NCBI RefSeq assembly: GCF_000828085.3
Contig: NZ_JXCA02000002.1
Span: 844,962 to 908,961, forward strand
DNA length: 64,000 nt
Origin: Scytonema tolypothrichoides VB-61278
GTDB taxonomy: Bacteria > Cyanobacteriota > Cyanobacteriia > Cyanobacteriales > Nostocaceae
Reading direction: 5' to 3'
In this document: positions 4,142-64,000 of the stretch, piece by piece
Numbering within the stretch: position 1 is the first letter of the stretch
Layout: every line of letters starts with the position of its first letter
Notes under the pieces: model-generated
What the model was told of the DNA's origin: nothing
What the model saw: only the letters and a program-made list of their open reading frames with translations
Databases searched by the model: none
Program-made: the position numbers and the translations under genes

Positions 4142-5407
4142 TTACACAATCTTTGCTTCTAGCTGTTTTGGTGTTTGAACAAGCTCATAAAGTTTATTCT
4201 CAAACTTTTCCATACAGACTGACCAATCAAATTCAAGTATGGATAAACGAGCTTGTTGAGACATTTTTTCTTTCAGTTCAGGATTTTCAAGAATTGAAAT
4301 CACTTTGTTAGCAAAATCAGTTGGGTTATTTGGTTGGGCTAACAAACCATTGAAACCGGGTTTGATTTGCTCTGAGGTTGAGGGTGCAATAGCAGCGACA
4401 ACAGGGGTACCAGAAGCTAGGGCTTCGTTATTTGATGTGCAGAAGTTTTCAGTGAGTGAGGGATTGACAAAAACATCCGCACGAGCATACCAGCCTAAAA
4501 GTTCTGTTCCGTGGGACTCGCCCCATACAGTTACACCGGATTTAAATTCTTCAGCACGCTTGCGGACTTCTGCATCGTAAGGACCACTTCCAATGATGAC
4601 CAAATGGACATCAGGAATTTTGGCAGCGATGAGTGGATATGTATCTATAAGTTGGGTAACATTCTTTTCTGCGGTAATGCGTCCAACAAAAAGAAGAGTT
4701 GGTCGATCATCGTTAGGAATAGGGTTATAACAGATGTTTGCCGGATTAAATTTTTGGCAATCAACTCCTTGGTAAGGGAGATATTCACTACGTTGAGATT
4801 TCATTTCTTCGTACTTAGCAAGCTGTTCTCGCGAAGAAAAGAAATTGACATCATAAACTTCGCTGAACTGCTTAATCAAAAAGGGGATGATGGGACGAAT
4901 CAGGCTGAAAAACTGATTTCCTAAGTAATATTCGATATAGGCAACAATATCTGTATGAAACAGAGATATTATCGGGGTACCTGTTTGCTTTGCGTATTCA
5001 CTCCCAATCGGGCGACCGTAACCTTGTAAATAAAGTGAGTAAAATCCTCTGATTTGTGCCGCTTCTTCAACGACTATAATATCAGGCTGGAACTTTTCTA
5101 ATAACTTTGTATCACTCCAATGTCGATAGTGTAATGGTTGTGGAAGAGATTTGTAAAATATCAGCGGCTGTGTTGGAAATGCGTAGTCAGAAAAATTAGG
5201 AAAAGCCTTTAACTCTTTTATCCCTGGCATGGGACGATTGCTAACAGATTTGGGATACTGGTCGTTGATTTGAGGGTGAATAAGAAAGACTTCATGCCCT
5301 TGCTGTAACAACCAGCGAACTCGCTGGTGTACTGCTACGGAAACTCCTGTTAAGAACGGAGCGTACAAGCTTGTAAAAATCGCAATGCGAAGAGGTTGTT
5401 TGTTCAT
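4142..5407 (-). CDS. hglT: HglT-like glycosyltransferase (GT4 family)
   Basis: A 421-aa GT-B fold enzyme. The N-terminus has RIAIFTSLYAPFLTGVSVAV and the glycine-rich loop of family 4 transferases. The C-terminal half has TLLFVGRITAEKNVTQLID and a donor-site EX7E-type motif (ENFCTSNNEALASGTPVV). HglT in Anabaena PCC 7120 (all5341) moves glucose from UDP-glucose onto the long-chain polyol aglycone to make the heterocyst glycolipid. The assignment rests on family type plus position at one end of an HGL gene set. A different lipid or polysaccharide acceptor remains possible. The gene reads toward the TPR gene with a purine-rich tract between the stops. Confidence 0.65.
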   Translation of the reverse strand: MNKQPLRIAIFTSLYAPFLTGVSVAVHQRVRWLLQQGHEVFLIHPQINDQYPKSVSNRPMPGIKELKAFPNFSDYAFPTQPLIFYKSLPQPLHYRHWSDTKLLEKFQPDIIVVEEAAQIRGFYSLYLQGYGRPIGSEYAKQTGTPIISLFHTDIVAYIEYYLGNQFFSLIRPIIPFLIKQFSEVYDVNFFSSREQLAKYEEMKSQRSEYLPYQGVDCQKFNPANICYNPIPNDDRPTLLFVGRITAEKNVTQLIDTYPLIAAKIPDVHLVIIGSGPYDAEVRKRAEEFKSGVTVWGESHGTELLGWYARADVFVNPSLTENFCTSNNEALASGTPVVAAIAPSTSEQIKPGFNGLLAQPNNPTDFANKVISILENPELKEKMSQQARLSILEFDWSVCMEKFENKLYELVQTPKQLEAKIV

Positions 5408-6428
5408 GATTTACGTGTCTTTTTGTATTTTTCCAAAGCTAAAAACTGGTGTCCAACAGAAGTACACTTGTCAGCAATAGCCCAGAGAAATTTAGGATTT
5501 ACGCATTGCAAGAGATTCTTAGTAAGCAGAAAAGATTTTCTGTTCTTACTCACCCTGACTTGAAAATAGAACTCATCAAATCAGAACGCAGAAAAGAGAA
5601 GATAAATTTTCATGTGTCCGATAGTTTGCAGTTCATGATGACTGCTATTTATATTGTTTGAAAATTAAAGTCTCATCTGTGACTCTGAATATCTTCTTTC
5701 CAGCCCTTTTCAGTAATACTCATTTGAATTAGTTATCTATTTTACGGATTGTGAGTAAGTGAAATTTTGGCTGATTAACTGCTATTTTAGATTTTCTTGC
5801 AAATAATAACTGATGAATATGCAACAATATTATCGAATTATAGTTTTTAGAAAAATATTAGGAATGTTCATATTGCACAGAAAAAATAATTTGCTTGCTA
5901 TAGATTTAGTCTTTTTTTAAGTTATATTCATACTAAAATTATATAGAAAATTTAATATTTTACAAAAAAAACTATGTTAGTATGAATCGAAATCATATCA
6001 ATGAAAAGACGGTTGTTTATTAGTCCTTTTTTGTAGCCATAATATATGTTTGATAATGTTTCGTAAAATTTCGTAGTCTAAGTGTTAATAGGATAGAGAA
6101 AGCAAAAAGTGACGACTCCACATTACTCACTGCAACGGACGTTAATATAGGCTTGTGAAGAAAATTATATGCATCGAAAAAGTTCTAAAATAAGATGAAT
6201 AAAGCGATTATATTGCCTCAGTGAGCGATTCAATTTCAAAAATTTATCTAGCACTTTAGATACCATTAAAAACTCATCGAAAGCTAAGTTAAAAATCTGG
6301 AAACTTAGATATGTTCTGCGTATTTTGTACATTCTATAAAGTACGCTTTATTTCCTTGTGTTCAAGTTTTATGGTTTTTTTGAAAAAGGCTTGAACAGTA
6401 AACGTAGTAAAACTAAGGAGACAAACAG
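5408..6428. other. 1-kb AT-rich intergenic region with an 11-bp inverted repeat
   Basis: Divergent spacer between the hglT-like gene (-) and the epimerase gene (+). No ORF is convincing; the open frame at 5449-5661 has no Shine-Dalgarno and no recognisable domain. ATTCATACTAA at 5926-5936 is matched by its exact reverse complement at 5977-5987, across a 40-base AT-rich loop. A good ribosome site, AAGGAG, ends about 9 bases before the ATG at 6429. Confidence 0.5.
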
Positions 6429-7391
6429 ATGCGTGTGTTTGTGACTGGTGGATCGGGATTTGTTGGTCGCAACCTAATAACCACTCTTGTGCAACAGGGA
6501 GTTGAAGTACAGGCGCTGGTAAAATGGGAGACTGAAATTGACATACTCAAGTCCTGTGGTGCTGTTCCAATCTTTGGAGATATTAATGACTTCGAGGTAC
6601 TGAAGTCTGGGATGGAAGGATGTACAGTTGTCTTTCATGCAGCTGCAAAGGTAGATGACTGGGGAGTTTTAGAAGAGTTCCAGAAAGTTAATATAGATGG
6701 AACACAACAAGTCATTGCTGCAGCAAGGGAAACAGGTGTATCACGTCTTGTTTATGTGAGTAGCGAAGCTGTATTGATAGGAGGAAAAGCAATCATTAAT
6801 GCTGATGAAACTCGACTTCGTCCTGTAAAACCATTAGGTCCTTATCCACTGACTAAAGCGATCGCAGAAACAAAAGTCATTGAAGCAAACTCAGCTGAAC
6901 TCACAACAGTGGTGGTTCGTCCGCGTTTTGTGTGGGGAAAAGGAGACACCACATTGTTACCACGCTTTGTTAAAGCTATCCGCAATGGAAAGTTTGCCTG
7001 GATTTCTGGAGGTCGCTATCTGACTTCTACCTGTCACGTAAAAAACTTGTGTGAAGGACTGATTTGTGTGGCAGAACGAGGAAAGGGAGGTGAAATTTAC
7101 TTCATTACTGATGGTTCGCCTGTAGAATTCCGAAGCTTTATTACAGAGTTAGCACGTACTCAAGGAGTTGAACCAGGTAGACTCAGCATACCACGTTGGT
7201 TAGCCTGGACATTGGCATGGAGTTTAGAGAGGATTTGGGAGCTGTTAAAGCTTAAAGGTTCACCTTCAATCACGCGAACAGCGTTGTGTATGATCGGATC
7301 CCAAGTCACAGTAGATGATAGCAAAGCACGACGCGAACTGGGTTATAAACCAGTGATTTCACGACAAGAGGGATTGTTAGAGATGGTATGA
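6429..7391 (+). CDS. NAD(P)-dependent epimerase/dehydratase (extended SDR, 3-beta-HSD-like)
   Basis: A 320-aa extended short-chain dehydrogenase. The N-terminal Rossmann motif is VFVTGGSGFVGRNL, the active-site Ser region is LVYVSSEAV, and the catalytic Tyr-Lys pair lies in GPYPLTKAIAETK (YxxxK). The C-terminal region is like 3-beta-hydroxysteroid dehydrogenase-type oxidoreductases, so the substrate could be a nucleotide sugar or a keto/hydroxy lipid. In an HGL island a role in oxidising or reducing a glycolipid hydroxyl group, or in sugar supply, is plausible but inferred. The start has a strong AAGGAG site. Its stop is 7 bp from the stop of the convergent glycosyltransferase gene. Confidence 0.75.
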   Translation: MRVFVTGGSGFVGRNLITTLVQQGVEVQALVKWETEIDILKSCGAVPIFGDINDFEVLKSGMEGCTVVFHAAAKVDDWGVLEEFQKVNIDGTQQVIAAARETGVSRLVYVSSEAVLIGGKAIINADETRLRPVKPLGPYPLTKAIAETKVIEANSAELTTVVVRPRFVWGKGDTTLLPRFVKAIRNGKFAWISGGRYLTSTCHVKNLCEGLICVAERGKGGEIYFITDGSPVEFRSFITELARTQGVEPGRLSIPRWLAWTLAWSLERIWELLKLKGSPSITRTALCMIGSQVTVDDSKARRELGYKPVISRQEGLLEMV

Positions 7392-7398
7392 GCTGATC

Positions 7399-10670: not shown

Positions 10671-11675
10671 TTATTGAACCAATTTTTGAATGTCTGTTTT
10701 CTTGAGCCATTCCTGTGTCAGGCGCATTCCCTGTTTTAAATCAATTGTTGGTTGATAACTTAACAGGTTTTGCGCTTTCGCAATTGAATAAGCGTAAGGA
10801 CGAGTCATAAAATCTACAGCTTCTGGTAGAATATCGGCTTCTTTGCGAAAAAGTTTTTGTCCTTGATAGCGCAACTTGAGAAATAATTTCAGTTCATCTT
10901 TTGGTAAAGAAAAGGGTGCAGCTAAACCTGCTACTTCTGCTAAGTGTGTAAAATACTCTTTCCAAGTTGTTTCTTGCCCATCAGTGACATTGAATATTTC
11001 TCCGTATGCTTCTTTTTCGATAGCAAGAAAGATGGCATCAATCAGGTTATCAACGTACACGTGATTAATAACTCCCCGCCCATCATTAGCATACGCAAAT
11101 AATCTTTGCTTCATCATCAGAAGTGGTCGAACTGTCCAGGGAATACTCCCAGGTCCGTAAACATCTCCTGGTCTAATAATTATGATGCCAAAGTTGCCAG
11201 GATCGTTCAGTTCTAAAAGTGCTTTTTCAGCTTCTATTTTTGTTTGACAATAGGGATTATTTTCACCACGTAGTGGTCCATCTTCTGTGATGCGATCAGA
11301 ATAGTTAAAACCGTAGACTAGAACACTTGAGAGATGAACAAAAGTTTTCACACCAGCATTTTTCGCAGCTTGCGCTATGTTAACTGTTCCCTCAACATTT
11401 CTCTGGCGAAATTGGTCGAGTGAACCACCTTCTTTAGCCAGTTCATCTGTGTGTAAAACTATGTCTACACCTTGACACGCCTTTTGAGCAGCAGTTGGAT
11501 CAGTAACACTGCCATAAATCACCTTAGCACCCAAGTTTTGTGCTTTTTTATTCTTATCTGAAGAATCTTGTAATCCACAAACCTTCATCCCCTGCGCCAT
11601 AGCTAGTTCTGTAGCACGCAAGCCAATAAATCCGCCAATTCCAGTGATGAGGAGAGTTTTGTCGTTCAGGTTCAT
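10671..11675 (-). CDS. hgdA: HgdA-like NAD-dependent sugar epimerase
   Basis: A 334-aa extended SDR. The Rossmann motif is LLITGIGGFIGLRATELA, VHLSSVLVYG holds the Ser, and NPYCQTKIEAEKAL has the YxxxK pair. Downstream IIIIRPGDVYGPG and VINHVYVDNLIDAIFLA are typical of UDP-sugar 4-epimerase relatives. Gene order (epimerase, DevC-like, DevB-like on one strand beside hgl PKS genes) matches all5345-all5346-all5347 of Anabaena PCC 7120, where HgdA is a UDP-galactose 4-epimerase affecting glycolipid composition. The symbol rests on that synteny. It probably shares a transcript with hgdC, 84 bp upstream. Confidence 0.65.
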   Translation of the reverse strand: MNLNDKTLLITGIGGFIGLRATELAMAQGMKVCGLQDSSDKNKKAQNLGAKVIYGSVTDPTAAQKACQGVDIVLHTDELAKEGGSLDQFRQRNVEGTVNIAQAAKNAGVKTFVHLSSVLVYGFNYSDRITEDGPLRGENNPYCQTKIEAEKALLELNDPGNFGIIIIRPGDVYGPGSIPWTVRPLLMMKQRLFAYANDGRGVINHVYVDNLIDAIFLAIEKEAYGEIFNVTDGQETTWKEYFTHLAEVAGLAAPFSLPKDELKLFLKLRYQGQKLFRKEADILPEAVDFMTRPYAYSIAKAQNLLSYQPTIDLKQGMRLTQEWLKKTDIQKLVQ

Positions 11676-11759
11676 AGAAGATAAAGGATTGTAATGAAAA
11701 ACTGAGGTTGAGTTCTTTTTAAGGAGTTGTTCTTCGTCAAGCAGTACTAATGACGAATG

Positions 11760-12938
11760 CTAGAAAATATCTGCTGGATCTGTAGAGCGAAGCTTGTTAA
11801 CAGCTAGTGCTCCAGAAATCATACACATTAATATTGTTGACATGAAGACAATGATTGCATTGTTCATAGACATCATTATTGGTAATTTCGTGACTTGCAT
11901 CGCAAAATTATATAAACCTAAAGAAAATATAAATCCAGGTATATAAGCTAAAACTGCCAAGATGATAGCCTGCTGAAAAACAACATTAAATAGATAATTG
12001 TTTGCGTAACCTATGGCTTTTAAAGTTGCATAAGCAATTAATTGATTGGAAATATTACTGTAAAGAATTTGATAAACAATGACGATACCAACTACAGAAG
12101 CCATTGATAACATGAGATTAAGTATAAAACCAATGGGTGTTCTGTTAGCCCAATATTCTTTTTCAAAATCAATAAATCCTTGACGCGTAAAAACTAAGAT
12201 ATCATTAGGTAAATTAGTTTGTAAATCTCGCTGAATATTTTGCGGATTAACACCAGGCTTAAGGGTAATTGCACCTATATCTATCATTTCTGATGGGCGG
12301 CTGTTTGGAAATATTCTAAAAAAGGTAGAGTCACTGACAATTAAATTTCCATCGACCCCAAATGAGGAACCTAAGCTGAACAAGCCACCAACTCTAACTC
12401 TATAACCAGTTAATGAGTTAAAAGGAAAAACTTCAATAACTTGTTCTGTGTTTCCTTTTTCAAATTTGTCCGCAATATCTCCAAACTCTGGTCGAGAATT
12501 ACGGTCAAAAAGCACGACGTCAGGAATCTTGATTTGATCTAAATATTCATCAATTTCTGGTAGATTCATAATCGGCTTTCCTGGTTCAAACCCAATAACA
12601 TAGATTGAGTATTTGTGACCATTAACAGGATTTTTAAATTTGGCAAATCCTATATACATAGGACTAACGGACTCGACACCATTAAACCCCAAAGCTTGAT
12701 ACAAGCGAGTTCGGAAAAAGCTTTGATTTGCTGTTAATGCTTTATATTGAGAACTAACTAAAAATAAATCACCCTGGAGATGTCGATGCACCTGGGTAGC
12801 GCTGGAATAAAGAGCATCTTGGAAACCAAGTTGCATAAACATCAGAATCACAATAAAAGCAATACCAGCAACAGCCACAAGAGAACGAACTTTGTTTCGG
12901 ACGAGTTGCAGCCATGCCAAAGGAATTTTAAGAACCAT
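11760..12938 (-). CDS. hgdC: DevC-like ABC exporter permease (HgdC)
   Basis: A 392-aa MacB/FtsX-type permease with one N-terminal membrane helix (SLVAVAGIAFIVILMFMQLG), a periplasmic domain of about 230 residues, and three C-terminal helices (FILNLMLSMASVVGIVIVYQ; QAIILAVLAYIPGFIFSLGL; AIIVFMSTILMCMISGAL). The ending LRSTDPADIF is characteristic of DevC. DevC works with a DevB membrane fusion protein, a DevA ATPase and TolC to export heterocyst glycolipids. No devA lies here, as for HgdB/HgdC in Anabaena, so an ATPase must come from elsewhere. The hgdB stop is 101 bp upstream. Confidence 0.8.
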   Translation of the reverse strand: MVLKIPLAWLQLVRNKVRSLVAVAGIAFIVILMFMQLGFQDALYSSATQVHRHLQGDLFLVSSQYKALTANQSFFRTRLYQALGFNGVESVSPMYIGFAKFKNPVNGHKYSIYVIGFEPGKPIMNLPEIDEYLDQIKIPDVVLFDRNSRPEFGDIADKFEKGNTEQVIEVFPFNSLTGYRVRVGGLFSLGSSFGVDGNLIVSDSTFFRIFPNSRPSEMIDIGAITLKPGVNPQNIQRDLQTNLPNDILVFTRQGFIDFEKEYWANRTPIGFILNLMLSMASVVGIVIVYQILYSNISNQLIAYATLKAIGYANNYLFNVVFQQAIILAVLAYIPGFIFSLGLYNFAMQVTKLPIMMSMNNAIIVFMSTILMCMISGALAVNKLRSTDPADIF

Positions 12939-12949
12939 GACTTTAATAC

Positions 12950-12982
12950 AGTTGTCAGTTATCAGTTATCAGTTATCAATTT
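12950..12982. repeat. Tandem heptamer repeat (CAGTTAT)n
   Basis: Three consecutive copies of CAGTTAT lie in the 101-bp gap between hgdB and hgdC. Related CAGTTATC/GATAACTG units occur at about 8690-8750 and 34905-34942. The type matches the STRR heptamers of heterocystous cyanobacteria. Confidence 0.75.
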
Positions 12983-13039
12983 GAAGAAGAATTCAGCAAT
13001 TGGTGCAATTGGTGTATTCAGAAGGAAGAAATAAAGAAT

Positions 13040-14290
13040 TTAGTTTTCCGACTTCTGACTCCTGACTCCTTCACTGTTCACTGTTGACTGAATGTGAATG
13101 GCGACATCCACTTGTAAGTTTGTTAAACCTGCGACTCTTTGACTATCTGCTGGATCATCAATACGGATTTTTACCGGAATGATTCTGCGATCTGTGTCTG
13201 CTGCTGGATTAACACTGAGGATATTTTGTCTGTCAACTTGCAAACCAATCTCACTTACGGTTCCTTTTATTTTTTTGGCAAACGCGGTGCTAGTGATGGT
13301 CGCTTTTTGACCGATACGGACTTTGGTAATATCAGTTTGATAAATTTCTGCCTCTACATACATTTGAGATGTTTTGCCTATCTCAACAATTCCTTCATTA
13401 CTGTTCACTTCTCCTGTTTTGGCATGAATTTTCAAAATTCTTCCATCTATGGGAGATTTGAGGTACGTTAAATCAAAGTCTGCTTTTGCTTGTTGGACGG
13501 CAGTGATAGCGCTTTGGACTTCAGCTTCTGCCAACTTAACATCCACAAGACGCACTTCTTTGATACTCCCTAGTTTCGCTTTTCCCTCATTGAGCTGGTC
13601 GTTTATTGTGTTGACACTACTGTTAAGATTGGCTTTAGCTTCTGTCAGTTGCTGTTGCACTGTCCGGAGTTGTAAACGCTTGCTATCAGCGGTGGAAGCA
13701 GAAATGGCACCTTCTCGAAAAAGTTGCTGATATCGATTGTTTTCAGTTTGAGCATTTTCTAACTCAGCCTCTAGGCGAGCTATTGTTGCTTGCTTAGCCG
13801 CCACTTCTCCTTTTAATTGTGAATCTAAGCGAGCGATCGCCGCGAGTTGAGCTTCTACCTCTCCTGCTTTAGCCCCAGCTTTCACTTGTGCGAGTTGCGC
13901 TTGAGCAATTTGAACTTTGTCTGAAGCTTGTTGTAGAGATGCCTTAGCGCGACCATAACTTTCTAATAAAGCCACAACCTGTCCAGCCCGAACTTCATCT
14001 CCTTCTTTCAAGAGCATTTTTTCAACTCGAACGCCAGAGAGTGAACTCGGAGCAAACAATCTAGTCACTTCACCTTCAGGCTGCAAACGTCCCAACGCAG
14101 TCACAGCAACTCTGACAATCCTCGTTGGGGCTGTCTTTGGCGCTTTTACTGCCTCAGTTTGAATGTTAGACCTTCGTGAAAAATTATGAAACAATAGGAG
14201 TCCGGTAGCCGAAGCAACAAGAACTGCCAATAAAATTGACCACCGATAGGTCGGTTTCGTGTATAACTGACTTCCTTTTTCTGTTGCCAT
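13040..14290 (-). CDS. hgdB: DevB-like membrane fusion protein (HgdB)
   Basis: A 416-aa HlyD/DevB-family periplasmic adaptor. One N-terminal membrane anchor (YRWSILLAVLVASATGLLLF) precedes a lipoyl-like half (LKEGDEVRAGQVVALLES), a long coiled-coil hairpin (about residues 110-250, rich in Ala/Gln/Glu/Leu), the second lipoyl half (YLKSPIDGRILKIHAKTGE) and beta-barrel parts (GQKATITSTAFAKKIKGTVS). DevB bridges DevC in the inner membrane to TolC. The last dozen or so residues (SEGVRSQKSEN) are encoded by a GAGTCAG heptamer repeat and look like a tail acquired by repeat insertion. It is divergent from the ParB-like gene. Confidence 0.8.
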   Translation of the reverse strand: MATEKGSQLYTKPTYRWSILLAVLVASATGLLLFHNFSRRSNIQTEAVKAPKTAPTRIVRVAVTALGRLQPEGEVTRLFAPSSLSGVRVEKMLLKEGDEVRAGQVVALLESYGRAKASLQQASDKVQIAQAQLAQVKAGAKAGEVEAQLAAIARLDSQLKGEVAAKQATIARLEAELENAQTENNRYQQLFREGAISASTADSKRLQLRTVQQQLTEAKANLNSSVNTINDQLNEGKAKLGSIKEVRLVDVKLAEAEVQSAITAVQQAKADFDLTYLKSPIDGRILKIHAKTGEVNSNEGIVEIGKTSQMYVEAEIYQTDITKVRIGQKATITSTAFAKKIKGTVSEIGLQVDRQNILSVNPAADTDRRIIPVKIRIDDPADSQRVAGLTNLQVDVAIHIQSTVNSEGVRSQKSEN

Positions 14291-17492: not shown

Positions 17493-17632
17493 TATGTGGT
17501 GTTGATTGGAACTGAATCTTTTACTGTTTGCAGATAGAATAGCTGCTTCAAATAGGAAATAGTCCTTTTTTGACTCGCCACAGAAATTACTGCAGCTACA
17601 CAAAACACACTACTCACCTTAGTCTATGTTCT

Positions 17633-20600
17633 ATGTCTGCTTATTCAATTGATACTGCGTTGGCGGAATTGGAAGCCCAGGTCAATAACTTTGAAAAGGC
17701 TGTGTATAAGTCTATTGAGGAGAAAAAAATCATGTCTGATAAATCCTTGTCAGTTAACAAAATTAATAGAAAATTACAAGATAATCCTATAGCCATCATT
17801 GGTATGGCTTCTCTTTTTGCAAAATCTCGAAACTTACGAGAGTACTGGCAAAATATTATTAATAAAGTTGACGGGATTACTGACGTTCCATCGACACACT
17901 GGAACATAGAAGATTACTATGACCCCAATCCGAGAACACCAGAGGAAAAAACCTACTGCAAAAGAGGTGGGTTTATCCCACACGTTGATTTTAACCCAAT
18001 GGAATTTGGAATTCCTCCCAGCATCTTAGAAGTGACGGATGTGGCACAACTCTTAAGTTTAGTCATAGCAAAAGAAGCAATGGAAGATGCTGGCTATGAT
18101 ACATCGCGCGAGTTTAATCGCGAAACTATTGGGGTTATTTTAGGTGTCGCAGGAAGCCAATTGGGATTACCACTCGCCGCGAGGTTAGAATATCCCGTTT
18201 GGGAAAAGGTGCTTAAAAGCAGTGGCTTATCCGATGAGGATACACAAAAAATTATCAAAAAAATCAAAAGCGCTTACGTGAACTGGGATGAGAATGCTTT
18301 CCCTGGGATGTTAGGTAACGTTGTTGCTGGCAGAATTGCTAACCGTTTAAATTTAGGCGGAATAAACTGCGTCGTCGATGCTGCTTGTGCCAGTTCATTC
18401 GCTGCCCTAAAAATGGCAATTAGCGAACTCATTGAGCATCGCTGCGACATGATGCTAACTGGTGGAGTTGATACTGACAACACCATCATGGCTTATATGT
18501 GTTTCAGCAAAACACCTGCTGTCTCTCCTAGCGACAATGTCAAACCCTTCGACGCTAAGTCTGATGGGATGATGCTAGGTGAAGGTGTCGGTATGGTTGT
18601 CCTTAAGCGCTTAGAAGATGCTGTACGAGACAACGATAAAATTTACGCAGTCGTTAAAGGAATTGGCACTTCCAGCGATGGACGGTATAAGAGCATTTAT
18701 GCTCCCCGACAAGAAGGACAAGTCAAAGCCTTGCAGCGTGCTTACGATGATGCAGGTTTTTCACCTGAAACCGTCACCTTAATGGAGGCGCATGGTACAG
18801 GTACGATGGCTGGTGACCCCACCGAATTTGCATCTCTGAGAGAATTTTTCGGGGAAAACTCACACAAGCAGTACATTGCACTCGGTAGCGTGAAATCTCA
18901 AATTGGACACACAAAAGCTGCTGCAGGTGCTGCCAGCTTAATCAAAACTGCTTTGGCGCTACATCACAAGATACTACCACCCACAATTAACGTTACTGAA
19001 CCTAACCCCAAACTCAATATCCAAAACTCCGCATTTTACTTAAATACGGAAACTAGACCTTGGATTCGTGCTGAAGGGGAAGCACCAAGACGTGCGGGTA
19101 TCAGTTCGTTCGGCTTTGGCGGTACAAACTATCACGTTGTCTTGGAAGAATACGAAGCTGAACAAGAACACGCTTATCGTATACACAATACTCCTAGCGA
19201 AGTGCTGCTGTTTGCTCAAACTCCTGCACAGTTATTGGCAAACTGTGAAGAGATTTTGGGTAAATTGCAATCGCAAGATGGTAATAGAAATTACGTGGAG
19301 CTTGTAGAGGAATCTAAATCAAAAGACATTCCTCTCAACGCCGCCAGAATTGGATTTGTTGCAGCATCTTGTGAGTCGGCTTGCAAATTGCTGCAAATCA
19401 GTATTGAGTTACTGAAAACCAGAACCTCAGATTCATCTTGGGAGCATCCCCAAGGAATTTACTACCGTTCTTCTGGTCTTGAGTTGACAGGAAAAGTTGT
19501 TGCTTTGTTTTCTGGACAAGGTTCTCAATCCTTGGGTATGGGTCGGGAATTGGTGATGAATTTCCCCATTCTGCGGCGTCTTTTCGGCTACATGGATAGC
19601 CTTTTACTCAAAGATAATTTACAGCCAGTGTCGGAAATCGTTTTTCCCCGTCCTGTGTTTGAGGAAGTGGAAAAAAATACCCAAATTGTTGCATTACAGC
19701 GTACAGAATATGCTCAACCAGCAATTGGGATGTTGAGTGCAGGGCTATATAAAATACTGCAACAAGCTGGATTTCAGCCAGATTTCGTTGCCGGACACAG
19801 CTTTGGAGAACTGACAGCTTTGTGGGCTGCGGGTGTTTTGAGTGAGGAAGATTACTGCTTCTTGGTGAAAGCGAGGGGTCAAGCAATGGCGGCTCCCCAA
19901 GATCCTGATTATGATGCAGGGGCTATGCTTGCTGTGAAAGAAGAAGTCGGCAAGATAGAAGCAGTTCTCAAGCATTTCCCTCAGGTGACAATTGCTAATC
20001 TCAATTCTCCCCGTCAAGTGGTGTTAGCAGGACCTGCAGTGGAAATAGCAAAAATACGGCAAACTCTACAAGAGCAAGGGTATGCAGCCGTTTTGTTACC
20101 CGTGTCAGCAGCCTTCCATACACCGCTGATTGCTTTTGCTCAGAAAGCTTTTGCCCAAGCTATCAAGAGTACCAGTTTCCAAAATCCAAAAATACCTGTT
20201 TACACCAATGTGACAGGAAAGCAGTACCCCAAGGAAGCAGCGGATATTCAAAGAATTCTAGAGACTCACATCTCAAATGCGGTGCTGTTTAAGCAGGAAA
20301 TTGAAAATATTTATGCTGCTGGTGGTTCTTGCTTTGTTGAATTTGGTCCCAAGAAAATTCTTACAGGGTTGGTGAAAGAAATTTTGGGCGATCGCCCCCA
20401 CCTCACCGTCGCTTTGAACCCCAGCAGCCAAAAAGATAGCGATCGCTCTCTACGAGAAGCCGTTGTCCAGTTACGCGTAGCTGGTTTGTCTTTGAAAAAC
20501 CTCGACCCCTACCAATTACCACAACCTATACCCGCAACCGAGAAAAGCAAAGGGTTGAACGTGCGTTTAAATGGCATCAACTACGTGTCAGAAAAAACAA

Positions 20601-23308
20601 AAATGGCATTTGAGCAAGCTTTGCAGGATGGACACAAAGTGAAATTACCTGCAAACACATCTGAGAATAACGCTCATATTGACTCCAAATCACTCTCCGC
20701 GACACTCACCACCATCACCGCCACTCCCCTAACGGTTGCAGAAAGTAACGGACATACAAATAAATCCCTACTTCCCGTCAGCGAGAAGATTGAGGACAAG
20801 GGAACGGAACAATTCAAAATTCAAAATTCAAAATCACCGAAGATTGGAGTCTCCTCCGGAGACGCTGCGCGAACGGAGGAAACCTCCGCTCCAACTTCTC
20901 TCAAAATTCAGAATCTGGAATCTTCCCCTACCTCCCCCACTCCCTCACTGCCTGACTCCCTCACACTTCCTACTTCCCCGACTCCTCCTACTTCATCTCA
21001 ACCCATTCCACAGCCGAAAATGCCAACAAATCCAGATGAACCCGTGAACTACCAACAAGTTTTAGCAAGCTTAGAATACGTCCTGACACAATTTCAGCAA
21101 AATCAAAGCGACAGTTTACAAGTTCACGGACAGTACCTCAGCCATCAGATGGAATATGCCAAAACCTTTTTCCAACTGATGCAGCAGCAGAATTCTTTGT
21201 TTGCCAACAGCAAATCTTCAGAAGAAGCTGCACAGCTTAAGGCAGTTCTTATGGAAAGCTTAGAGCGTGGTATGATGCAGTTTCACGCTCAACAAGGTGA
21301 AACTCTACGCGTTCACGAGCAATATCTCAACACTCAGGTAGAATACACCACAAACTTTTTGCAACTCATACAGCAAGAGTATGCACAGGTTGTCAACGCT
21401 GAGGTGCCAACAACTCAACCTGTGGTGTTTCTTGACGAAACAACAGCCGCAAATAAAAAACGTGAACGTCTGATTGCTTCAGATACAACAACTATTAAAC
21501 AAGACAGTTCAGTTCCTCCTACTCATCAAAAACCAGTAACTGAAGCACAACTGCATTCAGTTGTAGAAATTGGTACTCAAACGCAGATACAGAAAGCAAC
21601 GGATTTTGTGAGTACGAATGAGTTCTCACTCAGTCCCACAAATAACTTATCTGTTACATCTGTTACCCCATCTGTTGTCCCCCTCCCCATCTCCTCACCT
21701 GTAATCACCGAAACTGTAGCAGTCACGACAGAAAGCGCTCCCACAGATGCTTCTACATCTCCTACCCCATCTGTAATCACCGAAACTGTAGCAGTCACGA
21801 CAGAAAGCACTCCCACAGATGTTTCTACAACGACTTCTCATATCAGTGTAAATGTAGCTGAGTTGGGCACAAACCTGTTGGCAATCATCAGTGACAAAAC
21901 AGGTTACCCAGTAGAGATGTTAGAGATGAACATGGATATGGAGGCAGATTTAGGGATTGACTCCATCAAGCGTGTGGAAATCCTGGGAACAATGCAGGAA
22001 ATGTACCCAGACTTGCCTAAACCAAATGTGGAAGAACTGGGAGAACTACGCACGATTGGTCAAATTGTCGAATGTTTGCAAAAGACTGCTTCTCCATCTG
22101 TTGGTGTGACATCTATTGCTGTAGAAACTCCGATTTTTATACAAGAGGATGCAAGAATACAAGAACCAGTAAAAATTGAAGAAAACTCTTCCGTTACTTT
22201 ATCACCTGAGTTCCCCATTTCTTCCCCCACCCTAGTGAGCGAAAGTGTCTCAGTCACTGAAGAAGCAGAAGCAGCAGACACAGATTTAACAGATCTCGGT
22301 CAAACCTTGTTAGCAATCACGAGTGAAAAAACAGGTTACCCCGTGGAAATGTTGGATTTGAACATGGATATGGAAGCAGACTTGGGGATTGACTCCATTA
22401 AGCGTGTGGAAATCTTGGGGACAATGCAGGAGATGTACCCCAACTTACCTAAACCGAATGTAGAAGAACTCGGAGAACTGCGTACCATCGGTCAAATTGT
22501 AGAGTATCTGCAAAAGTTAGTTGGTACGGAAAAAAAAAAGTCTCTGAACAAGTCCTCCAGCCCATCGGGTAACTCAAACAACAATCCCCTGCGTCGTCAA
22601 GTCAAACTGAAAATTCTGCCTCAACCAGATTTTCTAGATTTCACCTTACCAGAGGGGCACATCGCTTTACTCACCGATGATGGATCCCTCACCACTTCCA
22701 AATTGGCTCAACTTCTCACCGAACAAGGCTGGAAAATCGTTGTTCTCAGTTTTCCTCAATCCCTGGTTCCACAACACTCACCTTTACCCTCAGGAGTCAA
22801 TCGCGTAAATCTCGTTGATTTAAGTGAAGAACATCTGCAACAACAATTAGCCACCATTTCCACTCAATATGGTTCAATTGATGCCTTCATTCATCTCAAT
22901 CCCTTATTTGAAGTCATCTACAACGGCAAAATTCCCTATCTTGAACAAGAAAAAGCAATTGTTAAGCACGTCTTTCTCATAGCAAAACACCTGAAAAAAT
23001 CCCTCAACGATACCACACATTCTGGACGTAGTTGTTTTTGCACAGTGACTCGTCTTGATGGAGCTTTTGGATTAGGACAAAATGTTAGCTTTGGTCCCAT
23101 CAGTGCTGGTTTATTTGGATTAACTAAAACTCTTAACTGGGAATGGCAACAGGTGTTTTGTCGAGCAATTGACTTAAGTCCTCACATTGATGCAGAACAG
23201 TCAGCACAGCACATTTTTGCTGAGCTACATGACCCCAATCGTTATATTACCGAAGTTGCTTACAACTCACACGAAAGAGTTACTTTGATTAGTGCTCCCG
23301 AAATTTAA
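17633..23308 (+). CDS. hglE: HglE: PfaA-like polyketide synthase, KS-AT-ACP-ACP-partial KR
   Basis: A 1891-aa type I iterative PKS closely resembling PfaA of PUFA synthases. KS: about 45-490, active Cys252 in VVDAACASS, His motifs EAHGTGT and SVKSQIGHTKAAAG. AT: about 620-940, Ser723 in GHSFGE. A linker of some 420 residues holds repeats and a duplicated helical unit (LQVHGQYLSHQMEY / LRVHEQYLNTQVEY). ACP1 and ACP2 each have DLGIDSIKR with phosphopantetheine Ser1444 and Ser1588. The C-terminal 230 residues are only the structural half of a KR (FGLGQNVSFGPISAG); the catalytic half is in hglD. The first plausible ATG is used; ATG 17732 has a better ribosome site (GAGGAG) and is possible. Role: chain building of the heterocyst glycolipid aglycone. 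Confidence 0.85.
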   Translation: MSAYSIDTALAELEAQVNNFEKAVYKSIEEKKIMSDKSLSVNKINRKLQDNPIAIIGMASLFAKSRNLREYWQNIINKVDGITDVPSTHWNIEDYYDPNPRTPEEKTYCKRGGFIPHVDFNPMEFGIPPSILEVTDVAQLLSLVIAKEAMEDAGYDTSREFNRETIGVILGVAGSQLGLPLAARLEYPVWEKVLKSSGLSDEDTQKIIKKIKSAYVNWDENAFPGMLGNVVAGRIANRLNLGGINCVVDAACASSFAALKMAISELIEHRCDMMLTGGVDTDNTIMAYMCFSKTPAVSPSDNVKPFDAKSDGMMLGEGVGMVVLKRLEDAVRDNDKIYAVVKGIGTSSDGRYKSIYAPRQEGQVKALQRAYDDAGFSPETVTLMEAHGTGTMAGDPTEFASLREFFGENSHKQYIALGSVKSQIGHTKAAAGAASLIKTALALHHKILPPTINVTEPNPKLNIQNSAFYLNTETRPWIRAEGEAPRRAGISSFGFGGTNYHVVLEEYEAEQEHAYRIHNTPSEVLLFAQTPAQLLANCEEILGKLQSQDGNRNYVELVEESKSKDIPLNAARIGFVAASCESACKLLQISIELLKTRTSDSSWEHPQGIYYRSSGLELTGKVVALFSGQGSQSLGMGRELVMNFPILRRLFGYMDSLLLKDNLQPVSEIVFPRPVFEEVEKNTQIVALQRTEYAQPAIGMLSAGLYKILQQAGFQPDFVAGHSFGELTALWAAGVLSEEDYCFLVKARGQAMAAPQDPDYDAGAMLAVKEEVGKIEAVLKHFPQVTIANLNSPRQVVLAGPAVEIAKIRQTLQEQGYAAVLLPVSAAFHTPLIAFAQKAFAQAIKSTSFQNPKIPVYTNVTGKQYPKEAADIQRILETHISNAVLFKQEIENIYAAGGSCFVEFGPKKILTGLVKEILGDRPHLTVALNPSSQKDSDRSLREAVVQLRVAGLSLKNLDPYQLPQPIPATEKSKGLNVRLNGINYVSEKTKMAFEQALQDGHKVKLPANTSENNAHIDSKSLSATLTTITATPLTVAESNGHTNKSLLPVSEKIEDKGTEQFKIQNSKSPKIGVSSGDAARTEETSAPTSLKIQNLESSPTSPTPSLPDSLTLPTSPTPPTSSQPIPQPKMPTNPDEPVNYQQVLASLEYVLTQFQQNQSDSLQVHGQYLSHQMEYAKTFFQLMQQQNSLFANSKSSEEAAQLKAVLMESLERGMMQFHAQQGETLRVHEQYLNTQVEYTTNFLQLIQQEYAQVVNAEVPTTQPVVFLDETTAANKKRERLIASDTTTIKQDSSVPPTHQKPVTEAQLHSVVEIGTQTQIQKATDFVSTNEFSLSPTNNLSVTSVTPSVVPLPISSPVITETVAVTTESAPTDASTSPTPSVITETVAVTTESTPTDVSTTTSHISVNVAELGTNLLAIISDKTGYPVEMLEMNMDMEADLGIDSIKRVEILGTMQEMYPDLPKPNVEELGELRTIGQIVECLQKTASPSVGVTSIAVETPIFIQEDARIQEPVKIEENSSVTLSPEFPISSPTLVSESVSVTEEAEAADTDLTDLGQTLLAITSEKTGYPVEMLDLNMDMEADLGIDSIKRVEILGTMQEMYPNLPKPNVEELGELRTIGQIVEYLQKLVGTEKKKSLNKSSSPSGNSNNNPLRRQVKLKILPQPDFLDFTLPEGHIALLTDDGSLTTSKLAQLLTEQGWKIVVLSFPQSLVPQHSPLPSGVNRVNLVDLSEEHLQQQLATISTQYGSIDAFIHLNPLFEVIYNGKIPYLEQEKAIVKHVFLIAKHLKKSLNDTTHSGRSCFCTVTRLDGAFGLGQNVSFGPISAGLFGLTKTLNWEWQQVFCRAIDLSPHIDAEQSAQHIFAELHDPNRYITEVAYNSHERVTLISAPEI
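20810..21000 (+). repeat. In-frame intergenic-type repeats inside the hglE linker
   Basis: Three repeat kinds in a row are translated in frame: AATTCAAA copies (about 20813-20834), a GC-rich hairpin repeat (about 20851-20902, with TCTCCTCCGGAGACGC and CGGAGGAAACCTCCG), and a CTCCCTCA-type pyrimidine tract (about 20930-20995). The same three kinds occur in non-coding spacers elsewhere in the window. Confidence 0.8.
21699..21829 (+). repeat. 72-bp tandem duplication in hglE ahead of ACP1
   Basis: A 59-base unit at 21699-21757 recurs at 21771-21829 with three differences, with a period of 72 bases (24 codons). It encodes two copies of ITETVAVTTES plus a Pro/Thr tail. The near identity implies a recent duplication in the flexible linker. 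Confidence 0.9.
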
Positions 23309-23369
23309 CTAGATGGGAAAGATGAGAAAGATGGGATGAGTCAAGAAGTATGGAAGTAAAGAAAAAGAG

Positions 23370-23428
23370 TTATTTTTCTCCCTCTCTCCCTCCCTCTCTC
23401 TCCCTCTTTCCCTCCCTCCCTATCACCT
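23370..23428. repeat. Polypyrimidine tract (CTCCCTCT)n
   Basis: An almost unbroken run of C and T, built from CTCCCTCT/CCCTCCCT units, lies between hglE and the next gene. Related tracts lie at 30997-31040 and, translated, in hglE at about 20930-20995. Confidence 0.75.
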
Positions 23429-23434
23429 AAAACT

Positions 23435-23956
23435 ATGCTCAATAATCAAGAAATTCATTATCTTGGTCGCGTTCTCGATAGAGAAAAACAAGCTCCTATC
23501 AGTGGAGCTAAAATCTTAATTAACTTCCCGGGTTATTCATGTGTTGTCTATAGTGACTTAGAAGGAATTTATAGATTTCAGGTTCCCTTTGATGACAACA
23601 ATGTTTTGGAAGGAGAAATAACGATAGAAGCCAAGGATTACAAAACATATTATTCATTCATCAGACTATATCCTGATGAAAGAGACCTTGGTGATATTCG
23701 ACTCATTTTGCCTCATGCTCAAGAACCAGACAAGAATGATAGTTTACTCACAATTATAGCAGGTATCATGATAGTATTAGCTTTAATTGTAGCGGCGCTT
23801 ACTTTACCTCCACCTCAAGAAATACCGCCTCAAGAAACACCAGATACTCAGAGCAACCTTCAAAAGCAGATTTATATTTCAAGTTATATAGCGGTTTTTA
23901 AAGGTTTTTCTATATCAAGAAAATCTCATAAAAACGGTTATAAAGTAGCCTCTTAA
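23435..23956 (+). CDS. Small membrane protein with a carboxypeptidase-regulatory-like beta domain
   Basis: A 173-aa protein. Residues 1-95 look like a CarboxypepD_reg/CNA-B-type beta sandwich: YLGRVLDREKQAPISGAKIL, YSDLEGIYRFQVPF, and ending GDIRLILP. One membrane helix follows (LTIIAGIMIVLALIVAALTL, about residues 105-125), then a short Pro/Gln-rich segment and a basic tail. There is no signal peptide, so it would sit with the domain on one face and the tail on the other. It lies exactly between the two halves of the ketoreductase (hglE and hglD). It may tether or order the PKS at the membrane, but that is only inferred from place. Confidence 0.65.
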   Translation: MLNNQEIHYLGRVLDREKQAPISGAKILINFPGYSCVVYSDLEGIYRFQVPFDDNNVLEGEITIEAKDYKTYYSFIRLYPDERDLGDIRLILPHAQEPDKNDSLLTIIAGIMIVLALIVAALTLPPPQEIPPQETPDTQSNLQKQIYISSYIAVFKGFSISRKSHKNGYKVAS

Positions 23957-24021
23957 TTCCAAGGTGTCAAGAGGTTGAAAAATCATTTTTGAAACAATTC
24001 AACAAGGTAAACAGGTAATTT

Positions 24022-43332: not shown

Positions 43333-44115
43333 ATGAACACTTCTAAACAAAGACCTCATTGGCGGGTAGTAGCTGCATCGGTATGTGGAACAAGTCATTT
43401 GAAGAACAAACAATTGTGTCAGGATGCTCACCATTGGCAAATTTTGCCAGATAATATCTTAGTGGTTGCGGCAGCGGATGGAGCAGGTAGTGCAAGCATG
43501 GGTAAGTTGGGAGCAATGATTGCTGTGGAAACAGCGATAGAAAACATATCTATCAAAGAATTTTCTCGACGAACACTAGTCGATGATAGTGCTGTGCGCT
43601 CACTTTTGACCGAGGCAATAATTTCTGCCAAAAAAGCGGTTGAGGAAGAGGCTGTCGCTTGCCAGAAGCAGTCATTGGATTTAGCAAGTACGCTGATTAT
43701 TGCGTTGGCAACACCAGAATTTGTGGCAGTGGCACAAATCGGGGATGGTGTGGCAGTGGTAAGAGATTTTCAAGATAACCTCATTGCGCTGACCATACCT
43801 GACAGTGGTGAATATATCAACGAGACAGTTTTTTTGACCTCACCGACAGCCCTAGATGCTGTGCAACTGAGATTATGGCGTCAGGCAGTAGCCAATGTTG
43901 GTGTCCTCACAGATGGACTACAAATGCTTGCCATGAATATGGCTGTGGGAGTTCCTCATAAACCATTCTTTCTTCCACTATTTGACTTCGCAGCGAATGC
44001 TGATGACAAAACAGTGGCAAAAGAGCAGTTAGTAAGGTTTTTGCGTTCCGAGCGAATTACGCAACGTACAGATGATGACTTGACACTCATAATTGCTGCT
44101 TTGAGTGATTTATAA
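43333..44115 (+). CDS. PP2C-like protein phosphatase
   Basis: A 260-aa phosphatase-fold protein. Motifs are VVAAADGAGSASMGKLGAMI (metal-binding DGxG), FVAVAQIGDGVAVV, and GVLTDGLQMLAM, ending RTDDDLTLIIAAL (metal Asp near the C-terminus). These suit a Mn/Mg-dependent Ser/Thr phosphatase of the short YegK type. The start ATG is 52 bp after the vWA gene, and 65 bp separate its stop from the kinase gene, so one transcript is likely. It would reverse phosphorylation by the neighbouring kinase. Confidence 0.85.
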   Translation: MNTSKQRPHWRVVAASVCGTSHLKNKQLCQDAHHWQILPDNILVVAAADGAGSASMGKLGAMIAVETAIENISIKEFSRRTLVDDSAVRSLLTEAIISAKKAVEEEAVACQKQSLDLASTLIIALATPEFVAVAQIGDGVAVVRDFQDNLIALTIPDSGEYINETVFLTSPTALDAVQLRLWRQAVANVGVLTDGLQMLAMNMAVGVPHKPFFLPLFDFAANADDKTVAKEQLVRFLRSERITQRTDDDLTLIIAALSDL

Positions 44116-44180
44116 ACTATGTCGCGAATTCGTTTGTCTGGAAGTGTATAAACTCATAGAGTATCTATAAAAAATATATC

Positions 44181-46370
44181 ATGCAGGTACTACGTTGTCT
44201 TCCCAACCAACAAATCAGTAATGTCAGCCTGACCGTAAGTTTAGGACGAGGCGGTGAGGCATGCATATACACAGTACCGACAGATGCTGGTTTAGTGGCC
44301 AAAGTTTACCACAAACCAACACCTGCCCAAGCTCGCAAACTGGAGGTCATGCTTGCCCACCCGCCGGACAACCCAACCGCCAGCTTGGGGCATATTTCCA
44401 TAGCTTGGCCGATTGAATTGTTGCGATCATCGAACGGATCCCGTGAGGTGATAGGTTTTTTGATGCCGCGCATTCAAGGAATGCGTCCAATCATCGACTT
44501 TTACAATCCCAGAACTCGGCGTCAGCACTGTCCTTTGTTCAACTATCAGTACTTAATTCGCACTGCTCGCAATCTCGCTTCAGCTTTTGCTGCGTTACAT
44601 GAGCGTGGATACTGTGTCGGCGATGTGAATGAATCCAATATCCTCGTCAGTGACATGGCATTGGTGACAATAGTAGACACCGATTCATTCCAAGTAAAAG
44701 ACCCAGAAAATGGAGTTATTTACCGGTGTCATGTAGGGAAAGCAGAATTTACCCCACCAGAACTTCACAACAAAACCTTTGCTCAGTGCGATCGCAATTT
44801 TAGTCATGACTTGTTTGGGTTAGGGGTACTGATATTTCAACTGTTAATGGAAGGGACACACCCATTTTCTGGGATTTATCAAGGACCTGGTGAACCTCCA
44901 CCATATGAAGCACGTATTGTTAGTGGACATTTTACCTATAGTCAAAAACGTAGCGTCCCCTACGTTCCAACACCTATCGCACCTGGTTGGGATATTCTTC
45001 CTCTGGGTTTACAGGAACTATTTATACGTTGTTTTGAGGATGGTCACAACAACCCCCAGATACGCCCCAATGCTCAAACTTGGCTCACAGCACTGGCTGA
45101 TGCGGAAAATTCGCTCATCAGCTGCACTGTTAACCCCCAGCATCGCTATAGCAACCACTTGAACAAATGTCCTTGGTGCGAACGTACATTGCGATTGGGT
45201 GGACGTGATCCATTCCCATCTTTAAAGGCGATCGCAAATAAAGAACATTTACAACCGCGAGTACAAAAGAAAAAACGCCAAACTCAAGCTCCTCGTACAC
45301 CGCAACCAACCATTCCGTTCAACACTCATTATCGTAGTTCAGGGTTTTCCCAAAAAATTCCTTACTATAAACCTCAGAAAAAGCAGAATTTATACCCTGT
45401 TGTTTTCTGCTTGCTTGGTCTTGTTGGTGCCTTGGGGTATTTGGATTTAATGGTAAAATTCACAAATCGCCCCTTTATTGCTCAAAATTCTTACGCTCAG
45501 CAAAATTTAATTTCTTTGCAACAGAATCAAAGTCACAAAAATCAAAATTTTGCTGATTACTACAAGCAAGGTCATGCTTCATACAAAGTGAAAGATTATC
45601 AACAAGCCATTGAAAGTTTCACTCAAGCAATACAAAAAGATCCAAAATACGCAAAAGCTTATGTAAATCGTGGAAATGCACACTATAACCTCAAAGAGTA
45701 TGAAGCAGCACTTGCAGACTACAATCAAGCAATTGGCATCAATTCCACGGAAGTAAAAGCGTATGTCAATCGAGGAAATTCCCGCTATATGCTTGCCGAA
45801 TATAGCACTGATCCAGACAAAGAATATAATCTAGCAATTGCAGACTATAACAATGCCCTGCGTCTTAATCCGAAGGAAGTGGAAGCATACATCAGACGAG
45901 GTGTTGTTCGCTCACAAATGGCTAAATATAGTGGCGATTCTCAACAGGAATATAAAAAAGCAATTGCTGACTTCAACCAAGCACTAAGCCTGAATTCATC
46001 AAAAGCCGAAGCCTTTTTTCAGCGAGGTTTGGTACGTTATCAAGTTGCTCAATATAGCAGTGATTTTGAGCAAGAATATAAACACGCAATTGCGGACTTT
46101 AATCAGGCATTGAGTATCAATCCCAAACTGTCAAAAGTCTATTTAAAACGAGGTGTTGTCCGCTACGAACTTGCACAATATGGAGGTGGCAAATCTAGTC
46201 AGTATCATCAGCAAGCAGTTGATGATTTGCAGAAAGCTGCCAAAATATCTTTGGAACAAGAAGATATGGATAATTACCAACAAGCATTAAGCAGCATCTG
46301 TGTTGTCGTGGAAAACAAATGCGATACTTTTTTGCAAACCACCACGAATACATCCTCACAAAGCAACTAA
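44181..46370 (+). CDS. Ser/Thr protein kinase with C-terminal TPRs (YegI-like)
   Basis: A 729-aa protein. The kinase domain (about 10-310) has the Gly loop LGRGGEACIY, Lys in LVAKVYHK, catalytic loop CVGDVNESNILV (Asp and Asn present, HRD changed to VGD) and DTD in place of DFG, so it is an unusual but probably active kinase like YegI. A small Cys motif NKCPWCERT (about 330) follows. One membrane helix is at about 410-430 (YPVVFCLLGLVGALGYLDL). Then come at least five TPRs, some with an 8-residue insert (AEYSTDPDKEYNLA). Cytosolic kinase and exported TPRs suggest a transmembrane receptor kinase. Confidence 0.85.
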   Translation: MQVLRCLPNQQISNVSLTVSLGRGGEACIYTVPTDAGLVAKVYHKPTPAQARKLEVMLAHPPDNPTASLGHISIAWPIELLRSSNGSREVIGFLMPRIQGMRPIIDFYNPRTRRQHCPLFNYQYLIRTARNLASAFAALHERGYCVGDVNESNILVSDMALVTIVDTDSFQVKDPENGVIYRCHVGKAEFTPPELHNKTFAQCDRNFSHDLFGLGVLIFQLLMEGTHPFSGIYQGPGEPPPYEARIVSGHFTYSQKRSVPYVPTPIAPGWDILPLGLQELFIRCFEDGHNNPQIRPNAQTWLTALADAENSLISCTVNPQHRYSNHLNKCPWCERTLRLGGRDPFPSLKAIANKEHLQPRVQKKKRQTQAPRTPQPTIPFNTHYRSSGFSQKIPYYKPQKKQNLYPVVFCLLGLVGALGYLDLMVKFTNRPFIAQNSYAQQNLISLQQNQSHKNQNFADYYKQGHASYKVKDYQQAIESFTQAIQKDPKYAKAYVNRGNAHYNLKEYEAALADYNQAIGINSTEVKAYVNRGNSRYMLAEYSTDPDKEYNLAIADYNNALRLNPKEVEAYIRRGVVRSQMAKYSGDSQQEYKKAIADFNQALSLNSSKAEAFFQRGLVRYQVAQYSSDFEQEYKHAIADFNQALSINPKLSKVYLKRGVVRYELAQYGGGKSSQYHQQAVDDLQKAAKISLEQEDMDNYQQALSSICVVVENKCDTFLQTTTNTSSQSN

Positions 46371-51260: not shown

Positions 51261-51264
51261 TCAA

Positions 51265-61154: not shown

Positions 61155-61247
61155 AACTACGGCACAGCTTGGCGCAAGGCGCACACTGCCTGAATATGCC
61201 TGGCGAGACTAACGACAACGAACGCACAAGCAAAAATATAAATCAAG

Positions 61248-61287
61248 CGGCACATGCTACCTAGAAAAGCATATGCCGTATTTTTTC
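61248..61287 (+). terminator. Rho-independent terminator after the Wzc-like gene
   Basis: CGGCACATGCT pairs with AGCATATGCCG (one mismatch) around a 9-base loop and is followed by TATTTTTT. It lies 93 bases past the stop. Confidence 0.75.
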
Positions 61288-61290
61288 TTA

Positions 61291-62827
61291 GTAGCGGCAG
61301 GAGTTTAACGGATTTCGGCGGAATTAAGAGTCCGCCATGCGGCGGGGTCCATCATGCCGGGGAATGAGGAGATACACCGACTCGTGATGATAACCAGAGG
61401 TTGTCAAACTTGTGGGGGTACAGGACTTGCGCTGGCTTGGCTTTTTTCTGTCTATGTGATTAGTCAATTTTGGTATATTACTAAACTGCGTTCTAAACCC
61501 TAACTTTCAAATAGCGATAGTTCTTGATGGAACTAGACAATCAAAATTTATAAATTAGGCTTTTGAACGCGAATTGGTATAAGTAGCTCAACTTAATTAT
61601 CTGTTTTTGTTCGCGCAGCGTCTCCGTATCTCCTCTGGAGACGCCCTCGTTGCAAAGCGACACGCTGAATGCAGGGGAAGGTTTTTCCGTAAGCGCAAAG
61701 CGTGCCACTAGGCATACGCGAGTGCGTGTCCAGAGAACATAGGTTGCTGGATCTTTACACGGGTTTTACCCAACCCGACAGTAATTGTGGTTAAAATAGT
61801 CAAATTCTCATTTTCTCTTCCCACAACAACAGCACGCTTGGAGTGCATTGTGGCAGCGCAAGTTACCAAGTGCCTCGTGCTTTCTTTAACGTAAGTAATT
61901 AAGTCAATTTGGTATTAATTAAAAGACAAAATGTTAATTGTTAATTGTGTATTGTGATATTTCAAGGCAGAGTATATAACTACCTATTCCCAAAGAGCAC
62001 AATCAAAGTGTATCCTACATCAAACTACTTACGGACAAGAGAAATCACCTTGTCTTAATACGTCTTGTTTTATGGATAGAAGAAAACTTAATACATCATA
62101 TATGCTTTTTTTACTCATAATAAGTTTCTTAGAGAATATCTCAAAAGATTTATGCGAATAGAATTCGCTACTAGACAAATGAAATCCGTCCGCGCGAAAA
62201 GCAAGAAAAATCATGACTTTCAATGCCGTACAGGCGGCTTTTGAGTGTATGGGGACGAATAGAATTCGCCTCGTCAAGTAAAAATAAGGCTTGAAGAGAT
62301 ATTTTGTTAGAAGTATTGGAACTCAAATTTATCTCAGCGTAGTTCGTGCAAAGCACTAAAATTATTGAGTTTGTGTCTTTTGATTAGTTGTGATAGCTAT
62401 GCTTTTTTTTAACAACGATTTTAAATCACGTACGGTGACAAGGAAGGGTCTTCTTTCGTAATTACACAAGCTATCTCATTCATAAGAACTTAATAATTAT
62501 CGGAAAAACGTCGTTGTTCTTTAAAGACTAAATAAAGCTCTCTATATGTAACGGTTCGTCTTATATGCTAGATATTAAATCCCCCTAAGAAACACAAGAG
62601 TGGAGTTTCTGAGATTATCTGAAAACTACTATTGTTGTATGATATACATTTCTGGTAAAGAATAATTAACCAAGATGTGCAATTGTTAATAGGGATAATT
62701 GTGTTATCTTTTTGCACTCGATTACTCCATGTTTTGGAGTAAAGAGCAAGATCCATTTCGGACTCTTTGGCTTTAGTAGCCTTAAATATTAGGTCGGCAA
62801 TCTACCATAGTATGAGTGAAGATACAT
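61291..62827. other. 1.5-kb intergenic region with repeats, no gene supported
   Basis: GC-rich palindromic units lie at about 61310-61370 and 61612-61740 (GCGCAGCGTCTCCGT, CTCCTCTGGAGACGCC, TAAGCGCAAAGCGTGCC). The rest is AT-rich. The 14-mer CGAATAGAATTCGC occurs at 62155 and 62256. Open frames at 62029-62277 and 62568-62756 lack domains and ribosome sites. The hepC promoter should be near the right end. Confidence 0.5.
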
Positions 62828-63667: not shown

Positions 63668-63808
63668 TTTGTTGTTCGTTACCTCATGGCTTGAACACCC
63701 TTGAGGTCTTTCACCAACTATAAATATTGGTTCCACCCTTGGAAAGTGACTTTCGCTCTGTTTATTATGACAAAACAACTACTGGAACTTACAGTAGTAA
63801 GTAAAATT

Positions 63809-63840
63809 GCCGCACGTCAGTCAACGCGTTGCGGCTTTTT
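63809..63840 (+). terminator. Rho-independent terminator between hepC and hepA
   Basis: GCCGCA (63809-63814) pairs with TGCGGC (63830-63835) across a 15-base loop, then TTTTT. It lies 142 bases after the hepC stop and 62 before the next start, so the next gene should have its own promoter or depend on read-through. Confidence 0.65.
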
Positions 63841-63901
63841 GTAAGACCATAGTATTTAGAGCACTCTATCTTCCCTGCAAAACTACGGTTGAATCTCACT
63901 C

Positions 63902-64000
63902 ATGCATGTCAAACTATCTAAATCAGGCCAAAATTTACTTAAGAATTTAGTCAAGACTACTAAGTTCTGGCAGGACAACCACCTAATAGTGCGAGAATTT
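63902..64000 (+). CDS. hepA: Probable HepA, N-terminal 33 residues (runs off the right edge)
   Basis: An open frame from ATG 63902 to the window end encodes a basic start and TTKFWQDNHLIVREF, which resembles the leader of HepA-type ABC transporters before the first membrane helix. hepA follows hepC in Anabaena PCC 7120; it encodes an ABC exporter needed for heterocyst polysaccharide. Only 33 codons are seen, so the call depends mostly on gene order. No strong ribosome site is visible. Confidence 0.55.
   Translation, partial: MHVKLSKSGQNLLKNLVKTTKFWQDNHLIVREF

Follow-up and report, generated by a model that had tools for sequence, protein, structure and literature searches.

In Anabaena sp. 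PCC 7120 the glycolipid (HGL) and polysaccharide (HEP) islands of the heterocyst envelope are separate, HGL at all5341-all5359 and HEP at alr2825-alr2841 or alr2822-alr2841; the locations given in an earlier note on this DNA agree with these published ones (PMC4390870, PMC7065334). The genes alr2822-alr2824 are counted within the HEP island (PMC7065334) and decrease along with the HEP genes in mutants of sigC and sigE (PMC4390870). An HGL island has been defined as a cluster of at least 7 of 19 Anabaena genes, and the variable presence of hetN has already been noted (PMC11804610). We found no published description of the two islands in juxtaposition, and the main text of the HGL survey (PMC11804610) contains neither the term HEP nor Brasilonema.

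Here we analyse a stretch of 64,000 nucleotides (the window; G000:C2:844962-908961), located on a 1.04 Mb contig of a 7.9 Mb Brasilonema genome, in which the two islands are neighbours. We consider it highly likely that HGL and HEP are ordinary separate clusters that were joined by one inherited two-break rearrangement in one Brasilonema clade. As an arrangement of two known islands, this gene order is new.

The window contains a complete HGL island

Domain scans placed the whole HGL island within the window (4142-35755, from the hglT-like gene to hetI), with the following components:

4142-5407, minus strand: hglT-like GT4 glycosyltransferase, the left end of the island (Pfam Glycos_transf_1)
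10671-14290, minus strand: hgdA (epimerase), hgdC (DevC permease) and hgdB (DevB membrane fusion), from domain scans
17570-34461, plus strand: hglE, a small ORF, hglD (KR-DH), hglC (KS-CLF), hglG (PfaD) and hglB (ACP-thioester reductase), from domain and family models
35036-35755, minus strand: hetI phosphopantetheinyl transferase, the right end of the island (NCBIfam 4PPT_HetI, E 2.9e-127, above cut-off)

The assignments are based on domains, family models and gene order rather than on a direct comparison with the PCC 7120 sequences, and the scans confirmed the hglT-, hgdABC-, hglEDCB- and hetI-like genes that the earlier note had named up to 35.8 kb. The family models TIGR01185 (devC) and TIGR02971 (DevB) matched hgdC and hgdB above cut-off, and the run from hglE to hglB is PUFA/PKS-like. 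A 96% identical copy of the hglT-like gene lies at the same position in genome G024. With clustered homologues of hglT, hgdABC, hglE/D/C/G/B and hetI, the locus is an HGL island by the published definition.

The Anabaena island likewise has hglT, hgdABC, hglE to hglB and hetI, and in both hetI is convergent to the hgl run. Unlike in Anabaena, no hetN lies between hglB and hetI in the window, where the interval (34462-35035) is only 574 bp long. Gaps of less than 0.6 kb between hglB and hetI are also found in other Brasilonema genomes, in G076 and in some Rhizonema and Scytonema-like loci; in Nostoc the gap is about 1.4-1.8 kb.

The HEP island begins within the window and keeps its left flank

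The HEP island is only partly contained in the window, starting at 42580 if a trio of genes like alr2822-2824 is included and at 46817 if it is not:

36323-41523, minus strand: ancestral HEP left flank, comprising gly-zipper, YCII, pheT and PATAN(DUF4388)-receiver protein genes (from domains; same order beside HEP in the unlinked genomes G087 and G076)
42580-46370, plus strand: VWA, PP2C phosphatase and kinase-like/TPR protein, equivalents of alr2822-2824 by position (from domains, comparators, PMC4390870 and PMC7065334)
46817-63667, plus strand: HEP genes rfbF, DAO, GT8, epimerase, GT2, PhyH, rfbC, DRL oxidoreductase, GT, PIG-L, GT, Wzc and hepC (from domains and comparators)
63903-64000, plus strand: start of hepA (ABC exporter), which continues to C2:910710

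The order cytidylyltransferase-RfbC-GT-Wzc-hepC-hepA identifies the island as HEP. Just the first ~98 bases of hepA fall in the window (full gene, C2:908863-910710), and beyond it HEP-type genes (GT, Wzy-like) run on to about C2:918563. The proposal that HEP genes follow from 46.8 kb therefore stands for rfbF, rfbC, GT, Wzc and hepC, but hepA is mostly outside. The VWA-PP2C-kinase/TPR trio lies immediately before rfbF in all comparators examined (G131, G195, G042, G076, G087), and from this position we infer that it represents the same three genes as alr2822-alr2824. With the trio counted in HEP, the gap between the islands is 6.8 kb (35756-42579); the separation of about 11 kb given in the earlier note holds under the narrower definition of HEP.

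The PATAN-receiver gene is divergent from the trio (40105-46370), an arrangement kept at the head of HEP in several genera. The kinase-like protein has no HRD or DFG motif, with GD and DTD at the corresponding positions, and PADLOC matches to it were dismissed as weak kinase-domain similarities. The trio resembles the vWA-PP2C-kinase 'TerY-P triad', and the arrangement may be a phosphorylation switch for polysaccharide synthesis. This flank (VWA-PP2C-kinase and PATAN-receiver) stays with HEP even when the surroundings change.

The intergenic region between wzc and hepC is long (61155-62815) and holds a 102-bp element (61479-61580) with a 98% copy at C2:103654, along with further short multi-copy repeats. 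HepA of the unlinked genomes G025 and G026 (L022, L024) is only 63-64% identical to that of the window, with most surrounding HEP genes at 84-97%; this drop in identity suggests that hepA has been replaced or is fast-changing within the genus.

The same junction is present in five assemblies

The junction of hetI with the gly-zipper gene was found in five Brasilonema-group genomes (G000, G024, G022, G027 and G023), which are monophyletic with support of 100/100, G025 falling outside the clade. In G024 it is located on a 7.78 Mb contig with all genes collinear, and gene order is conserved throughout the window between G000 and G024. A single contig of G027 spans hglC to Wzc across the junction, and a contig of G023 starts in the hetI 5′ flank and carries it. 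In G022 one contig runs from hetI to pheT, and HEP is on another, whose start lies shortly before the receiver gene.

The G000 assembly is a draft in 31 contigs, and short repeats with several copies lie near the reciprocal joint described below, both of which would suit a joining of the two blocks by misassembly. However, five independent assemblies carry the same junction, among them G024 on its 7.78 Mb contig and G027 on the contig from hglC to Wzc, and the reciprocal junction is also consistent, leaving a misassembly with a negligible probability. The physical linkage of HGL and HEP pointed out in the earlier note is real, and misassembly is excluded for practical purposes.

Linkage is rare in the family

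Positions of hglB and hepA were collected for 220 genomes in 56 genera, 206 of which have both genes. The two share a contig in 64 of these 206, at a median distance of 2.24 Mb; the closest pairs are 30.6 kb (G024) and 31.0 kb (G000) apart, and all other same-contig genomes show at least 187 kb. In 142 drafts, including the linked G022 and G027, the genes are on different contigs and the contig measure alone is blind to linkage. A survey of 80 named hglB loci, covering up to 10 kb of flank each and including some loci too short to tell, found HEP-flank genes after hetI only in Brasilonema angustatum and Brasilonema CT11. Only two of the 64 same-contig genomes fall below 187 kb, and they belong to this clade; this rules out a general Nostocales arrangement and makes the linkage indeed unusual.

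Linkage might instead have been ancestral in heterocystous cyanobacteria and lost elsewhere, as could be read from G076, where the islands are collinear and hetI lies 279 kb from the gly-zipper gene. Yet it is absent from all measurable genera outside the clade and from both the sister genome G025 and G026, and distances elsewhere are random. An ancestral state is accordingly very improbable.

A two-break rearrangement accounts for the junction

The boundary between the two ancestral neighbourhoods could be narrowed to a short interval:

36241-36284, no strand: rearrangement breakpoint, hetI 5′ flank joined to the 3′ flank of the gly-zipper gene (from the limits of flank homology)

Homology to unlinked hetI flanks stops at 36240, and homology to unlinked gly-zipper flanks begins at 36284 (G087) or 36314 (G025, G076). 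After hetI, the unlinked genomes have a phycobilisome-linker gene and cluster (G025, G026, G076) or cobalamin genes (G087). The stretch from pheT to HEP is intact in G025, G076 and G087, and before the gly-zipper end of this flank are a SnoaL gene (G076, G087) and a HEPN-RNase III gene (G025, G076, G087). The phycobilisome-linker and HEPN-RNase III genes are now adjacent to each other in the linked genomes, at G000:C3:355797-358361, at G024:C1:3449507-3451964, in G022:C18 and in G027:C358, and G023:C147 matches G000 across this reciprocal joint at 95.6% identity. Since the former neighbours are adjacent elsewhere in all five linked genomes, we attribute the linkage to a two-break rearrangement. 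The HEPN-RNase III protein itself (L028:5815-6981; G000:C3:357186-358361) has an unusual combination of Swt1-like HEPN, RNase III and dsRNA-binding motif.

In the proposed sequence of events, the gly-zipper, YCII, pheT and PATAN-receiver genes would already have been the left flank of HEP when, in the ancestor of one Brasilonema clade, two breaks joined the hetI 5′ flank to the gly-zipper 3′ flank. The reciprocal ends, with the phycobilisome-linker and HEPN-RNase III genes, would have been joined to each other and the new order inherited by the descendants. In the complete genome G024, the way in which the reciprocal joint is ordered and oriented is incompatible with a single simple inversion, so excision and reinsertion or an additional inversion is needed; the collinear islands of G076 would allow excision and reinsertion. 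Junction, reciprocal junction, single clade and rarity are direct observations, and the order has probably been retained through descent, as has the remainder of this region of local conservation.

Proximity shows no sign of joint control or selection

It had been suggested that one locus may specify both envelope layers and so allow them to be inherited or regulated jointly. At its end the HGL run converges on hetI, and transcription of the receiver gene diverges from that of VWA. The minus strand carries hetI, the gly-zipper, YCII and pheT genes and the receiver gene, and the islands neither share a transcription unit nor lie free of unrelated genes between them. As four minus-strand genes including pheT separate them, no plus-strand transcript can span both. 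Scans of the window found 14 NtcA-type sites where 9.0 were expected (a count attained in 7 of 100 shuffles), most of them inside genes, 8 DIF-type motifs against 7.3 expected, and no HetR-type palindrome. Shared NtcA, DIF or HetR sites above chance were not apparent in the window, and such motifs were discarded as a convincing link. Joint regulation is thus not borne out, nor is joint inheritance, both islands being present in nearly all genomes of the family, linked or not. The proximity is probably without regulatory effect.

Circular HGL-HEP distances compared with a uniform distribution gave KS p values of 0.23 (59 near-complete genomes) and 0.87 (one genome per genus, 28 genera), neither set departing from uniform. 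For any one arrangement, an approach to 31 kb has a probability of 0.008; the probability that at least one of 28 genera shows it is about 0.2. Selection could nevertheless keep the linkage, if proximity coordinates the envelope layers through a shared domain or timing or helps them to travel jointly. All five genomes of the clade retain it, and the Anabaena islands, though unlinked, respond to the same developmental programme (PMC7065334). Against selection stand the single origin, the fit of distances across genera to random placement, the lack of motif enrichment in the window, the division of the islands by pheT and other minus-strand genes, and the fact that nearly all other genomes function with megabase distances; moreover, the whole-window order is conserved between G000 and G024, so that retention of the linkage does not in itself point to selection. 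We regard maintenance by selection as improbable, and find it quite improbable that the juxtaposition alters the timing or dosage with which glycolipid and polysaccharide are deposited and was kept by selection in the Brasilonema clade for that effect. The linkage is best read as an inherited rearrangement of neutral or nearly neutral effect. The gene order is real, derived and specific to the lineage, with no evidence that it has a function.

Comparison with described and unlinked islands

With the linkage settled as real, dated to one clade and its breakpoint located, the locus offers a natural control: by comparing related strains whose islands are linked or unlinked, one can test directly whether genomic proximity affects envelope assembly. 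The unlinked G025 (Scytonema RU_4_4), G026 (Brasilonema UFV-L1), G076 and G087 have the same genes and the same immediate HEP flank as the window. Unlike in the window, their hetI adjoins a phycobilisome or cobalamin cluster and their pheT flank adjoins the SnoaL and HEPN-RNase III region.

The HEP island of Anabaena PCC 7120 (alr2825-alr2841 or alr2822-alr2841) shares with the window its cytidylyltransferase start, RfbC, oxidoreductase and GTs, as well as a Wzc-like gene, hepC, hepA, further GTs and the three genes before rfbF. In Anabaena PCC 7120 HGL is far away; in the window, by contrast, the hetI 5′ flank runs into the left flank of HEP, and HGL sits 6.8-11 kb upstream of the HEP island.
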